Of a stretch of DNA of 64,000 nt, positions 14,335 to 26,665 are shown piece after piece (position 1 is the first letter of the stretch; each line of letters opens with the position of its first letter). Where the stretch lies: assembly GCF_003130705.1 (NCBI RefSeq), contig NZ_CP021354.1, positions 1,922,001 through 1,986,000 on the forward strand. The letters run 5' to 3'. The notes beneath the pieces are model-generated. The model ran no database searches. It was not told the origin of the DNA and saw only the letters and a list, made by a program, of their open reading frames with translations. Source of the DNA: Rhodococcus oxybenzonivorans. Its GTDB lineage: Bacteria > Actinomycetota > Actinomycetes > Mycobacteriales > Mycobacteriaceae. Made by a program: the position numbers and the translations under genes.

Positions 14335-15093
14335 ATGTCGCCCTATTGCCGTGTCGATTCCGTGGCGGAAAGCTCGAGAGCACGAGTGGACCGCCTCGAG
14401 GGAAGGGCGCTGGAGGAGGACGGCTACGTCCTCGTCCGCGACGTGGCCGATCGAGCCGCTGCTGCCGAAGTGGTTCGCTCCCTTGGGAATTTGGTACCGC
14501 AGTACAACGGTCATCTCACGCATGACGTGACCTACCGGCCGGGAAACGATCACCGGGCGTACTCACAGAGCGCGAACACGATTCTGGCGCACACCGAGGC
14601 TCCCGGATGGGATCCGAGCCCCGCCTATCTCGCTTTGTATTGTCATCGCCAGGCGCGCTGCGGGGGAGGGCATACCGACCTCCTCGACATACGGCACTTG
14701 GTCGAGGCCCTCGAACCGGCCGAGCTCGCGCTGATGACCGACGCCGAACTGGTCTTTCCCGGCCCTGACGGCGGAGTGCACACCACCATGCTGGGCTCGG
14801 ACACTACCGGGCGCACTGTTCTGCGGTTCAGCTACAACCTGCTCACCGCCGCCGACTACGATCCCCACCGCGACGCCGACATCGACGACTCCCTGCTGCC
14901 GCTCGGTCAGGCCGGCCGCCGGTTGGCGCACCGCGTCAGCGACCTGTTCCACACGCTGCGCACGCGTGTGCTGATCCCGGAGAATGCGCTGCTCATCTGG
15001 GACAACCAGCGCATGCTGCACGCGCGGTCGGAGTACGCCGACCGCACCCGTCACCTCACTCGTTTCTGGGCCGGCGACCGGAGCCGCGCATGA
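14335..15093 (+). CDS. Fe(II)/2-oxoglutarate dioxygenase, TauD/clavaminate-synthase-like
   Basis: 252 aa from the ATG at 14335, which has GGAGGA 5 nt before it; an ATG at 14323 overlaps that ribosome-binding site and is less likely. The metal site is HxE type: His86-Thr-Glu88 (in AHTEAPG), with the distal His229 in MLHARSEY and Arg residues at 237-243 for 2-oxoglutarate. HxE rather than HxD is the variant known from clavaminate synthase and some amino-acid hydroxylases. It is somewhat shorter than TauD. It should hydroxylate or desaturate an amino acid or the assembled peptide. It is the first gene of the cluster, and its stop overlaps the start of the AurF-like gene. Confidence 0.82.
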
Positions 15094-16106
15094 CCATCGA
15101 CGACCTTCAACTGCAACGCTCCGATGCCGATGGGCTGGTGCACTTTCCGGGACTTCCGGCGTTCGACCCCGCCGACGAAACCGAGAACGCCATCATCCGC
15201 CGCCTCGCGGGGAACTGGCACCGGCGGTCGACGGTGAAGCGCGACGAGCCCGACCTCGACGAGCTGTTCGTTGCCGGCCGGGCGGACTATCCGGAGAAGC
15301 TTGTGCCGTTCCGCGCGCACCCGACGTGGCAGGCGATGCCCGACGCGCTGCGTTCGCGGCTACTGAGCTGGGCGTGGATCGCCTATAACCGGCATACGGT
15401 GCTGGCCGAGCAACGTGTCGCCAATCCGGCCTTCGCGCTGGTGATGGACGGTGAATTTCCCGGACTCGGTGGTCCGGATCTGGAGATCGCGCTCGCCCAG
15501 GCCATGGTCGACGAGCAGTACCACTCCCTGATGCATATCAATGCGAGCGCGCTGACGAGGCGCAAACGGGGGTCCTTGTTCCCCGACAGCGCTCTTCCCG
15601 AGTCGCATACCTCGCGGATGCACAGTCGGTTGCGGGACGAGGCCGCGGAGCGCTGGCAGCGCAGCCTCACCACCTTGGCGTTTGCCACCGTCTCCGAGAT
15701 CTCGATCAACGCGTACCTCGATCTTCTTGCCGGCGATCGGGACATTCAGGTGGTCAATTCCACTACCGCGCAACTGCACAACCGGGACGAGTACTGCCAT
15801 GCGTCGATTTCCGACGAGATGGCGAAGCTCGTGTATGACGTGCTGGACGCCGACAAGCGCCGCTTCTTCCTCGACATGCTCGTGGCAGGGCTGGAGGCGT
15901 TCGTGGCCACCGACTACTCCACCTGGGAGGCGATCTTGCGGATCGAGCGGGTCCCCGGTTGGGAACGGATGGTCGCCGACGTTCGCTCCGAGAGTTCCGG
16001 GGCGCGGCTCGTGCGCGACTACAGCGGCCTCCACTCGCTGATGTCGGACATGGATGTCCTAGGGGAAGTCGACTTCGACTGGGGCCTGGCGGTGACGAAC
16101 ACATGA
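15090..16106 (+). CDS. AurF-like di-iron N-oxygenase
   Basis: 338 aa, matching p-aminobenzoate N-oxygenase AurF in length. All seven expected iron ligands are present: Glu107, Glu142, His145 (in DEQYHSLMH), Glu203 (in SEISINAYL), His230, Glu234 and His237 (in [11 protein letters not shown]). Their spacing (35, 3, 58, 27, 4, 3) is the AurF spacing as I remember it (35, 3, 57, 27, 4, 3). AurF-type enzymes oxidise a primary amine through hydroxylamine and nitroso stages to a nitro group. Here the substrate is more likely an aliphatic or amino-acid amine, since no aminobenzoate gene is near. ATGA overlaps link it to both neighbours. Confidence 0.85.
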
Positions 16107-17416
16107 CACTCGCCCTCGATAGCCACACGGCGCTGAACCCGCGGTCGGTCAGCGGTGACCGGCTACGCAAGCTCGTCGTCGAACGCACCGGCGACCCGGT
16201 CCTCGCACATGAGGCGCACGTGGTGTCCCAGGTACTGCCGTTCAAGGTCAGCAGCTACGTGGTGGACGAACTGATCGACTGGGATCGTGCACCCGACGAC
16301 CCGATCTACCGCCTGACCTTTCCGCACCGCGACATGCTCGAACCCGAACACTTCGCGGTGATCGAGCAGGCGGTGGTACAGGGCGACCGGGCCGGAATCC
16401 GCAAGGCGGCCGACGCGGTTCGAGGCTCCCTCAACCCACACCCAGGCGACCAGATGAGCATGAACGTTCCCCAGCACGACGACATCGACGGCTCGGGGAT
16501 GCAACACAAATATGCCGAGACACTGCTGGTGTTTCCCCGCCAGGGACAGACCTGCCACAGCTACTGCGGCTACTGCTTCCGCTGGGCCCAATTCGTCGAC
16601 CAGGCCGACCTCAGGATGGCCGTGTCCGGGCCGGAGGCGATGACCCGGTACCTCGATCGGCATCCGATGATCACCGACGTCCTGTTGACCGGCGGCGACC
16701 CGCTGGTGATGCGCACCGATCTGCTGGCCTCCTACCTCGAGCCCCTCCTCGAACCCGAACGCGAACACGTCGACACGGTCCGGATCGGGACGAAGGCCGT
16801 GTCGTTCTGGCCCTACCGCCTGCTGGCCGGACCCGAAGCGGACAGCGTGCTGCGGTTACTCGAGCGGCTGACCGCAGCGGGTAAGCACGTCGCGGTGATG
16901 CTGCACCTGTCCCATGTCGCGGAGTTGCAGACCGATGTGGCCAAGGCGGCGCTCGCTCGATTGGCGTCGACGGGAGCGGTGCTGCGCGCCCAGGCCCCGG
17001 TGGTGCGTCACGTCAACGACGACCCGCGTGCGTGGGCAGACCTGTGGCAGGCGCAGGTGCGTCACAACGTGGTGCCTTACTACATGTTCGTCGAACGGGA
17101 CACCGGTGCCCGGCCGTACTACGGTCTGCCGCTGGCAAGGGCGTACGACATCTATCGCGAAGCGCTGCAACAAGTCTCCGGTCTCGGTCGGACCGCGCGC
17201 GGACCGGTGATGTCGGCGTCACCCGGAAAGGTCGTGATCGACGGCGTCGTCGAGCTCGACGGCGGACGCGCGTTCGCGCTGCGCTACCTGCAGGCCCGCA
17301 ACCCGCAGATGGTCGGCAGGCCGTTCTTCGCCGTGTACGACGAGCAGGCGCAGTGGTGGGACGAACTACGCCCGTACGGTCCCCGCGACCGCGAATTCTT
17401 CGGGGGACTCTCGTGA
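16103..17416 (+). CDS. KamA-family radical SAM/PLP aminomutase-like enzyme
   Basis: 437 aa from the ATG overlapping the previous stop. The radical SAM cluster motif CHSYCGYC (Cys151, Cys155, Cys158) is of the CxxxCxxC type, followed by the SAM-binding LLTGGDPL near residue 194-201. Lys376 in SASPGK is in the position of the PLP lysine of lysine 2,3-aminomutase. The two Asp residues that hold the lysine side-chain amine in that enzyme appear replaced, by Arg332 and Val369 (37 residues apart, as in the model). That argues for a different, possibly acidic or neutral, amino acid. The product would be a beta-amino acid. EpmB-type function is unlikely given the cluster. Confidence 0.82.
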
Positions 17417-25404: not shown

Positions 25405-25408
25405 AAAC

Positions 25409-26665
25409 ATGACCGAACACGTCTTGGTCGTCGGCAGCGGCCGCGACCTTCCGAGCCGGATCCGCAGGGCCCTGCCCGGCACGCAGACCTCCGTGATCTG
25501 TCGTCTCGACTTCGTTGCCAAGCTCCGGCAGCTGACCGAGCACACCCGGGTGATCGCCGTGCGGCACGACGCCCCGGACGAGGAATGGATAGCACTGGCC
25601 AGGGCGGCGCACGCCCGGCATCCGTTCACCCGCATCGCGACGTTCGGTGAACGCGATCAGGACCGCTGCGCCGCGATCGGCGAGGCGCTAGGCCTGTCCA
25701 CCCACTCGCGGCGCACTGTCGCGATGATCCACGACAAGAACGCCATGCGCGTGCAGCTTCGGGAGTCGGGCATGGACTCCACGGCCTCCGCCATCGTCGC
25801 CGACGTGGACGCACTGCACACGTTCGTGGGGCAACATGGCCTGCCCTGTGTCGTGAAACCGGTCTCCGGCGCGGGCAGCGCGGGGGTGGCCGTGGTTCGG
25901 GAGGACGCCGCGCTCGCGGCGGCATTCGAGCGCGCGGGAGGCAGCTTCGACGGCCTCCCGAACAGCGGCGTGCTGGTGGAGCAATTCCACGAGGGACCGC
26001 AATTCAGTGTCGAGGCGTTTTCGGAAAGCAGTGAACACCAGGTCGTCGCCATTACGCGCAAATTCTCCGACCCGGCCACCTTCGTCGAACTCGGCCACGT
26101 AGCACCGGCCGAACTTTCGGCGGCCGAGGAAGAGCAGGTGCACACCTATGTGGAACGGCTGCTCGACGCACTCGGAGTCGAATTCGGGGCCACGCACACC
26201 GAGATCGTCCTCGGATCCCAGGGCCCGAAGGTGATCGAGACCCACGTGCGAATGGGAGGCGACGAAATACCTGCTCTCGCCTTCGACGCCACCGGCGTCG
26301 ACCTCGCCGGCTGTGTCGTGCGCCAAACGGTAGGGGAAAAGGTTCTTTCGGGAATTCGGGCGGTTCTCGCCGAGGAGCGGCCCGGTCGCTGTTCCGCGAT
26401 CTGGTTCGCGGCCGCCCCGGTGGCAGGAGTGCTCACAGAGGTCGGCGGCCTCGACGACGCCCGGAACGTCGACGGTGTGACCGAGGTGCAGTTGCTGGTT
26501 CGACCGGGGAGCAAGGTCGACGTCCTGGAGTCGTCGGACTCGCGGGTGGCCTACGCACGGGCCCTCGGAGACACGGCCGAGCAGGCGCTCGTCGCCGCTC
26601 GCGAAGCTGTCGGCTGCCTCGAATTCCAGGTGCGGGTGGCGGCAGCGGACGTGGTGTCGGTGTGA
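25409..26665 (+). CDS. ATP-grasp amino acid ligase (second of two)
   Basis: 418 aa from the ATG at 25409; the ribosome-binding site is weak, consistent with coupling to the exporter gene 4 bp upstream. ATP-grasp signatures: DKNAMRVQLRESG near residue 110, CVVKPVSGAGSAGVAVVRE, LVEQFHEGPQFSVEAFSES, and IETHVRMGGDEIPALAFDATGVDL as the Mg/ATP loop. This pattern is typical of BacD/carnosine-synthase-like L-amino acid ligases. It differs substantially from the first ATP-grasp protein of the cluster, so the two probably form different bonds. It is the last cluster gene before the separately controlled SDR gene. Confidence 0.84.
   Translation: MTEHVLVVGSGRDLPSRIRRALPGTQTSVICRLDFVAKLRQLTEHTRVIAVRHDAPDEEWIALARAAHARHPFTRIATFGERDQDRCAAIGEALGLSTHSRRTVAMIHDKNAMRVQLRESGMDSTASAIVADVDALHTFVGQHGLPCVVKPVSGAGSAGVAVVREDAALAAAFERAGGSFDGLPNSGVLVEQFHEGPQFSVEAFSESSEHQVVAITRKFSDPATFVELGHVAPAELSAAEEEQVHTYVERLLDALGVEFGATHTEIVLGSQGPKVIETHVRMGGDEIPALAFDATGVDLAGCVVRQTVGEKVLSGIRAVLAEERPGRCSAIWFAAAPVAGVLTEVGGLDDARNVDGVTEVQLLVRPGSKVDVLESSDSRVAYARALGDTAEQALVAAREAVGCLEFQVRVAAADVVSV

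Follow-up and report, generated by a model that had tools for sequence, protein, structure and literature searches.

We analysed a window of 64,000 nucleotides from Rhodococcus oxybenzonivorans (contig NZ_CP021354.1, positions 1,922,001 to 1,986,000), within which an earlier note, made from the letters alone, had described eleven collinear genes as a peptide biosynthetic cluster that works without nonribosomal peptide synthetases (NRPS). Domain scans agreed with the domains given there for the eleven genes (here A-K), which occupy positions 14335-26665. All of them lie on the + strand, and adjacent genes overlap by 4 bp at nine of the ten junctions, the last (J/K) being a 4-bp gap. The scans detected no NRPS or polyketide synthase (PKS) domain in A-K. 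We give an even chance to the interpretation that this operon makes a short peptide whose special residue is a glutamate bearing an oxidised nitrogen at C3, in all likelihood 3-nitroglutamate. The features of the locus are as follows.

14187..14334, + strand: leader/promoter region at the upstream edge of the shared block (homology starts here in five of five non-syntenic Rhodococcus copies)
14335..15093, + strand: gene A, Fe(II)/2-oxoglutarate oxygenase of the TauD family (PF02668, 66.7 bits), proposed C2 hydroxylase
15090..16106, + strand: gene B, AurF/CmlI-type ferritin-like diiron N-oxygenase (PF11583, 194.4 bits, cut-off 29.6), proposed to turn a beta-amine into a nitro group
16103..17416, + strand: gene C, KamA-like radical S-adenosylmethionine (SAM)/pyridoxal phosphate (PLP) aminomutase, proposed glutamate 2,3-aminomutase
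17413..18897, + strand: gene D, dipeptide-epimerase/DgcA-type racemase fused to a GNAT domain like glyphosate N-acetyltransferase (MR_MLE and Acetyltransf domains)
18894..19949, + strand: gene E, Ldh2-family dehydrogenase (PF02615, 327 bits), proposed to convert a 2-hydroxy acid to a 2-oxo acid
19946..21172, + strand: gene F, divergent ATP-grasp ligase (ATP-grasp_4, 25.2 bits, cut-off 27)
21169..22437, + strand: gene G, FemAB-like aminoacyl transferase (PF04339, 65 bits)
22434..23354, + strand: gene H, class IV (IlvE type I) aminotransferase (NF005146, 408.8 bits, cut-off 279), proposed to install the alpha-amine
23351..24100, + strand: gene I, all-helical protein folded like the C-terminal half of acyl-CoA dehydrogenases, which probably assists H
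24097..25404, + strand: gene J, MFS exporter (PF07690, 94.9 bits)
25409..26665, + strand: gene K, ATP-grasp L-amino acid ligase of the LAL_C2 type (PF13535 and PF18603, 66 bits each, both over cut-off)

To define the boundaries of the operon, DNA homology to the window was followed in other Rhodococcus genomes. In all five non-syntenic copies (L012-L016), the shared block extended from 14187/14188 to 26665, so that about 150 bp upstream of gene A belong to it and its downstream edge is the stop codon of gene K; one copy (L015) had a gap at 14248-14288 within the leader homology, and a sixth (L011) also had its flanks in common with the window. A promoter-like conserved stretch around CT(A/G)GGGTG was present upstream of gene A in seven aligned copies (A in five, G in two), while no RNA element in 9000-32000 matched Rfam at the gathering score. 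Because the block edges are common to five copies in other genomic settings, the operon at 14335-26665 is one transferable unit, and the coordinates of the earlier note were right. The idea of a housekeeping operon was set aside on these edges together with the patchy spread of the genes, since gene C at an identity of at least 86% was carried by 7 of the 28 genomes of the genus, each time with A-K around it. The window also has, on the upstream side of the cluster and not within the shared block, a gene for an EspA-like TPR protein (9593-11941), followed by a small lipoprotein-like gene (11938-12678).

The earlier note had proposed a search for co-occurrence of the KamA-like, AurF-like and ATP-grasp genes across Actinobacteria. 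We searched GTDB genomes with gene B and kept the best 80 of 130 relatives as loci; gene content was listed locus by locus apart from L001-L010, and gene K was cut by the locus end in many cases. The cluster was found in the same gene order in 18 of these 80 loci. Eight of the 18, from Rhodococcus and Mycobacteriaceae, had all eleven genes, and all eleven were also detectable in two Streptantibioticus and four Streptomyces loci, with gene I matching partially in three (L037, L039 and L048). Gene I was undetectable in two Kutzneria loci, genes I and J were undetected in Streptomyces xanthochromogenes JCM 4612 (L033), in which A-H and K were present, and the single Nocardiopsis locus (L028) had neither C nor I, a member of the gene C subfamily lying elsewhere in that genome, where it might serve in trans. 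The remaining loci comprised 58 with gene B outside such a cluster, three with a five-gene core and a 3.4-kb contig with A-B-C. So that loci were not selected through gene B, 392 Streptomyces genomes were searched for gene F, which yielded four matches at E <= 1e-60. The order of A-H and K was kept in all four loci; one locus had no I and J, and one came from the CBMA291 genome already among the 18 (L137 and L048 are identical over 13.9 kb). The recurrence of this order in Mycobacteriaceae, Kutzneria, Nocardiopsis, Streptantibioticus and Streptomyces bears out the view of a single transferable unit. The whole cluster was present in L013, on a chromosome-sized contig of a genome taken as Rhodococcus jostii RHA1.

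Phylogenetic trees were built with L020-L024 left out (same genomes as L011, L012 and L014-L016); L019 and L036 were also omitted from the gene C trees, and L028, which has no C, from the concatenated trees. In the tree of A+B+C, Rhodococcus/Mycobacteriaceae joined Kutzneria (100/100; alternative rejected, p 2.5e-5), whereas in that of D+E+F+G they joined Streptantibioticus and S. xanthochromogenes (100/100; alternative rejected, p 8.5e-6). The two trees thus disagree, and A-B-C seem to have moved between lineages as a cassette.

Gene C kept the radical SAM/PLP aminomutase fold, the CxxxCxxC motif and the PLP lysine. Its score for the curated lysine 2,3-aminomutase family was far below the cut-off (98.5 of 525.4 bits), and its subfamily was separate from the LAM-like proteins in the tree (100/100). 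The closest named relatives were from Rhodococcus, and several close relatives bear the name lysine 2,3-aminomutase in GenBank. In lysine 2,3-aminomutase, two aspartates (Asp293 and Asp330) presumably hold the lysine side chain. The first position was R332 in 50 of 50 rows of the gene C subfamily, and the second was V369 in the gene C alignment, S371 fitting there only by eye with a gap; neither residue is acidic. Aspartate occupied both positions in L128. Among the relatives found across the phylum, those in L120 and L121 (54% and 53% identical to gene C by tblastn) had as neighbours a PLP enzyme of aminotransferase fold and an adenylation enzyme, to which L120 adds VinK, and the relative in L126 adjoined an NRPS. 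The incednine radical SAM enzyme IdnL4 is believed (PMC11284099) to turn L-glutamate into beta-glutamate. Because the lysine-contact aspartates are gone and L120 and L121 place gene C relatives beside incednine-like starter genes, gene C is probably a glutamate 2,3-aminomutase of the IdnL4 type and not a lysine aminomutase, the likeness to IdnL4 being one of genomic context.

Several observations weigh against this assignment. First, gene C fell far short of the curated cut-offs for glutamate 2,3-aminomutase (TIGR04368, 76.5 of 650 bits) and for the KamA subfamily (105.4 of 199.2 bits). Second, an aspartate (D333) is found a single residue away from the Asp293 position, and the alignment therefore does not settle the pocket of gene C. 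Third, macrolactam-type neighbours were seen in 2 of 10 phylum-wide relatives (L120 and L121), the open reading frames (ORFs) of the seven loci other than these and L126 being scanned in part. Fourth, the activity of IdnL4 itself has not been seen in vitro (PMC11284099).

Relatives of gene C also occur in other settings. A different peptide-like cluster of Rhodococcus, at 4668-19636 of L018 (a replicon taken as R. jostii RHA1 plasmid NC_008269) and also in L017, has a 57% gene C relative next to genes for a cupin, a luciferase-like monooxygenase and a Lys/Orn N-monooxygenase, together with MetRS-like, AMP-binding, ATP-grasp, FemAB-like and MFS genes. Its cupin, MetRS-like protein and N-monooxygenase recall machinery for forming N-N bonds. 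In addition, large plasmids of Mycetohabitans rhizoxinica carry a 51% relative, and some of these records name Rhizopus microsporus as the host.

Gene B reached 207.8 bits with the NCBIfam 4-aminobenzoate N-oxygenase model, below the cut-off of 620, and its best solved relative was 5hyg/5hyh (452.9 bits); 5HYH is CmlI (PMC13108848). Gene B is thereby classed as CmlI-like and not as AurF proper. Residues E107, E142, H145, E203, H230, E234 and H237, a set of three histidines and four carboxylates, were invariant in 23 copies, and this metal-ligand pattern is the one given for Dob3 in PMC12154687. In the gene B tree, the cluster copies, the chloramphenicol-type copies and some others fell on one side, and the Nocardia ninae copy (L062), presumably Dob3 itself, on the other. 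The chloramphenicol-type locus checked, L034, contained CmlA_N, an AMP-binding/reductase protein and PabAB-type genes; none of these was found among A-K, and gene B as a plain chloramphenicol CmlI was rejected on that ground. CmlI makes a nitro group (PMC12154687 and PMC13108848). Because gene B falls on the CmlI side of its family, a nitro product is more likely than the hydroxylamine or nitroso group that the earlier note had named beside it. Two points weigh against this part of the interpretation. The relative that shares the metal-ligand pattern, Dob3, is a hydrazone oxidase (PMC12154687). In addition, the chloramphenicol CmlI clade was nested inside the cluster copies, so the tree leaves the substrate type of gene B unsettled; CmlI acts on an arylamine, and an aliphatic substrate for gene B is a prediction. 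A separate group of gene B relatives (L041, L043, L046 and L050) with ATP-grasp matches nearby, and in L041 also an AMP-binding/aldehyde-dehydrogenase protein, represents another N-oxygenase cluster.

The other enzymes were compared in the same way. For gene A, the best NCBIfam models were TmpA and gamma-butyrobetaine dioxygenase, both far below their cut-offs, and no solved relative was found at E <= 0.001; H86-T87-E88, H229, R239 and R243 were invariant in 23 copies, and the HxE...H triad fits a putative hydroxylase rather than a halogenase. The best NCBIfam model for gene E was L-sulfolactate dehydrogenase, below cut-off, with H48 and H120 invariant in 23 copies. In gene H, the PLP lysine K159 was likewise invariant in 23 copies, and the next best copy in the genome was 37% identical. 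The model of gene I was all-helical and matched the C-terminal half of acyl-CoA dehydrogenases and oxidases. Because H and I formed one open reading frame (543-561 aa) in all three mycobacterial loci (L025, L026 and L027), this in-frame fusion suggests that gene I may work with H.

Among the genes expected to form the peptide, gene K matched the L-amino acid ligases 30vh, 3vot and BacD. Gene F gave 16.7 of 29.4 bits for LAL_C2 and matched the L-amino acid ligase 4wd3 at E 4.8e-9, with K145, E257, E270 and R274 invariant in 20 copies. The racemase half of gene D was closest in NCBIfam to the N-acetyl-D-Glu racemase DgcA, under the cut-off (159 of 400 bits), and also fell short of two curated L-Ala-D/L-Glu epimerase families (93.4 of 343 and 72.5 of 500 bits); gene D matched the solved structures 3iji and 2bsw. 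The closeness to DgcA, though under the cut-off, also speaks for glutamate as the starting amino acid. The KxK motif, the D/E/D metal ligands, the second lysine and the DxD motif were all present (K155, K157, D181, E207, D232, K254 and D304xD306, invariant in 20 copies), the last of which we take to be the motif of dipeptide-epimerase-like proteins. Judged by length, the Kutzneria and Nocardiopsis copies of gene D have no GNAT part.

From these assignments a pathway can be proposed in which every step, and every enzyme activity, is predicted from sequence. Gene C would move the alpha-amine of L-glutamate to C3, giving beta-glutamate, and gene B would oxidise this beta-amine to a nitro group (3-nitroglutarate). 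Gene A would hydroxylate C2, possibly before B acts, gene E would oxidise the resulting 2-hydroxy alcohol to a 2-oxo acid, and gene H would place a new alpha-amine on C2 to yield 3-nitroglutamate. The ligases K and F and the transferase G would then add further amino acids, while D would epimerise a Glu-like residue of the dipeptide or of its N-acetyl form and could N-acetylate it, plausibly for self-protection; J would export the product and I would assist H. The Ldh2 enzyme E and the transaminase H suggest that the alpha-amine is rebuilt, and the beta-amine would therefore be an intermediate that becomes the N-oxidised group. Thus, of the beta-amino acid and N-oxidised group expected by the earlier note, the N-oxidised residue is retained in our proposal and the beta-amino acid is not.

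Of the genes A-K, a smaller cluster has exactly the five needed for these building-block steps, each of which is plausible for its enzyme family. In S. alboflavus, Streptomyces sp. CBMA152 and S. lasiicapitis, a single locus (L082, L090 and L097, at about 6.7-13.1 kb) held counterparts of A, C, B, E and H, and none of D, F, G, I, J and K was detected in these three loci at E <= 1e-6 over about 21 kb. A gene for an EamA-family exporter lay between C and B (by Pfam in L090, and from corresponding frames in L082 and L097); upstream, both loci scanned (L082 and L090) had a gene for an AraC regulator. We read A, C, B, E and H, with no ligase detected beside them, as a building-block pathway on its own, and the product of A-C-EamA-B-E-H is probably a free amino acid that the cell exports.

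Three other explanations were weighed. An unlikely one, though the most serious of them, is that the same glutamate-derived block is made and B stops at a hydroxylamine, oxime or nitroso group or builds some other N-O or N-N group, such as a cyclic hydroxylamine, in which case the peptide would not be a nitro compound. The ferritin-like diiron family of gene B includes formers of hydrazone, azoxy and nitroso groups (PMC12154687), and the B proteins of the five-gene clusters, on a long separate branch joined to L055 and apart from the other cluster copies, may perform other chemistry, with the warning that a long-branch join may be false; against this explanation, the cluster copies group with the chloramphenicol-type ones and not with the N. 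ninae copy. It appears improbable that a beta-amino acid such as beta-lysine persists in the peptide alongside an N-oxidised residue of separate origin: the aminomutase fold, the PLP lysine and the GenBank names of several gene C relatives agree with it, whereas the replaced aspartates, on which a beta-lysine peptide was set aside, the two subfamily members whose neighbours resemble the starter-unit genes of the beta-glutamate pathway, and a five-gene cluster with no detected ligase to join separate residues all argue otherwise. Slighter still is the chance that gene C acts on another amino acid, branched-chain or aromatic for instance, as the IlvE-type score of H above its curated cut-off and the closeness of B to CmlI might suggest, since A-K include no aromatic amine pathway genes, which the chloramphenicol-type locus L034 does have, and IlvE-type enzymes also bind glutamate/2-oxoglutarate as co-substrate.

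We return to the 3-nitroglutamate pathway and its possible product. Nitropeptin is listed among the metabolites of S. xanthochromogenes in PMC5138215, which cites Ohba et al. 1987. The cluster strain JCM 4612 belongs to this species, and with gene F in 4 of 392 Streptomyces genomes, the co-occurrence of the compound with A-H and K is suggestive of nitropeptin as a candidate product type. Two points weigh against this link. JCM 4612 is not known as a nitropeptin producer, and its cluster has no detected I or J. A dipeptide needs no two ligases and a FemAB-like transferase, and the actual product may therefore exceed nitropeptin in size. The nitro residue of nitropeptin is presumably 3-nitroglutamate.

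We offer, at somewhat less than even confidence, the broader proposal of a transferable actinobacterial amine-shift route to beta-nitro amino acids, in which 3-nitroglutamate is exported alone or built into peptides, and which would be the missing biosynthesis of nitropeptin, occurring also in Rhodococcus and Mycobacteriaceae. In the open-licence PMC papers searched, we found no description of the cluster gene set or of nitropeptin genes. As far as those papers go, the view that the gene set is uncharacterised is upheld, as is that of a peptide pathway that does without NRPS and contains an N-oxidised unit, and its route to an aliphatic N-oxidised amino acid is apparently undescribed; the novelty holds for the genes, while a compound of the product class, nitropeptin, may already be known. 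The four refinements made here (a glutamate aminomutase, a rebuilt alpha-amine, a nitro group and the nitropeptin class) are all things that we infer. If they are true, a nitro antibiotic that is so far an orphan gains its genes, aliphatic nitro amino acids gain a new biosynthetic logic, and a group of KamA-like proteins often called lysine 2,3-aminomutase in databases gains a likely function. The pathway looks directly testable in the genome taken as R. jostii RHA1, which carries the whole cluster.

Comparison with known systems places the cluster among several partial relatives. Nitropeptin is a nitro dipeptide antibiotic reported from a species with a cluster-bearing strain, but the cluster has more peptide-forming genes than a dipeptide needs. 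Like bacilysin and other ATP-grasp dipeptide pathways (BacD), it would use L-amino acid ligases instead of NRPS; it differs in its warhead genes, its FemAB-like transferase and its racemase-GNAT fusion. With chloramphenicol it shares the closeness of gene B to CmlI, whereas no aryl amine precursor genes, NRPS or CmlA were found among A-K. The 3-aminobutyrate starter pathway of incednine (IdnL4/IdnL3/IdnL1) has a radical SAM enzyme believed to form beta-glutamate, and gene C relatives lie in two cassettes that look like it; there, however, beta-glutamate is decarboxylated and loaded on a PKS (PMC11284099), and A-K yielded no decarboxylase, adenylation enzyme or PKS. HrmI and BelK of hormaomycin and belactosin are bacterial routes to a side-chain nitro amino acid in which, as PMC13108848 describes, a heme-oxygenase-like enzyme oxidises the side-chain amine of lysine. 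In the cluster described here, by contrast, an aminomutase would shift the amine before a ferritin-like enzyme oxidises it.

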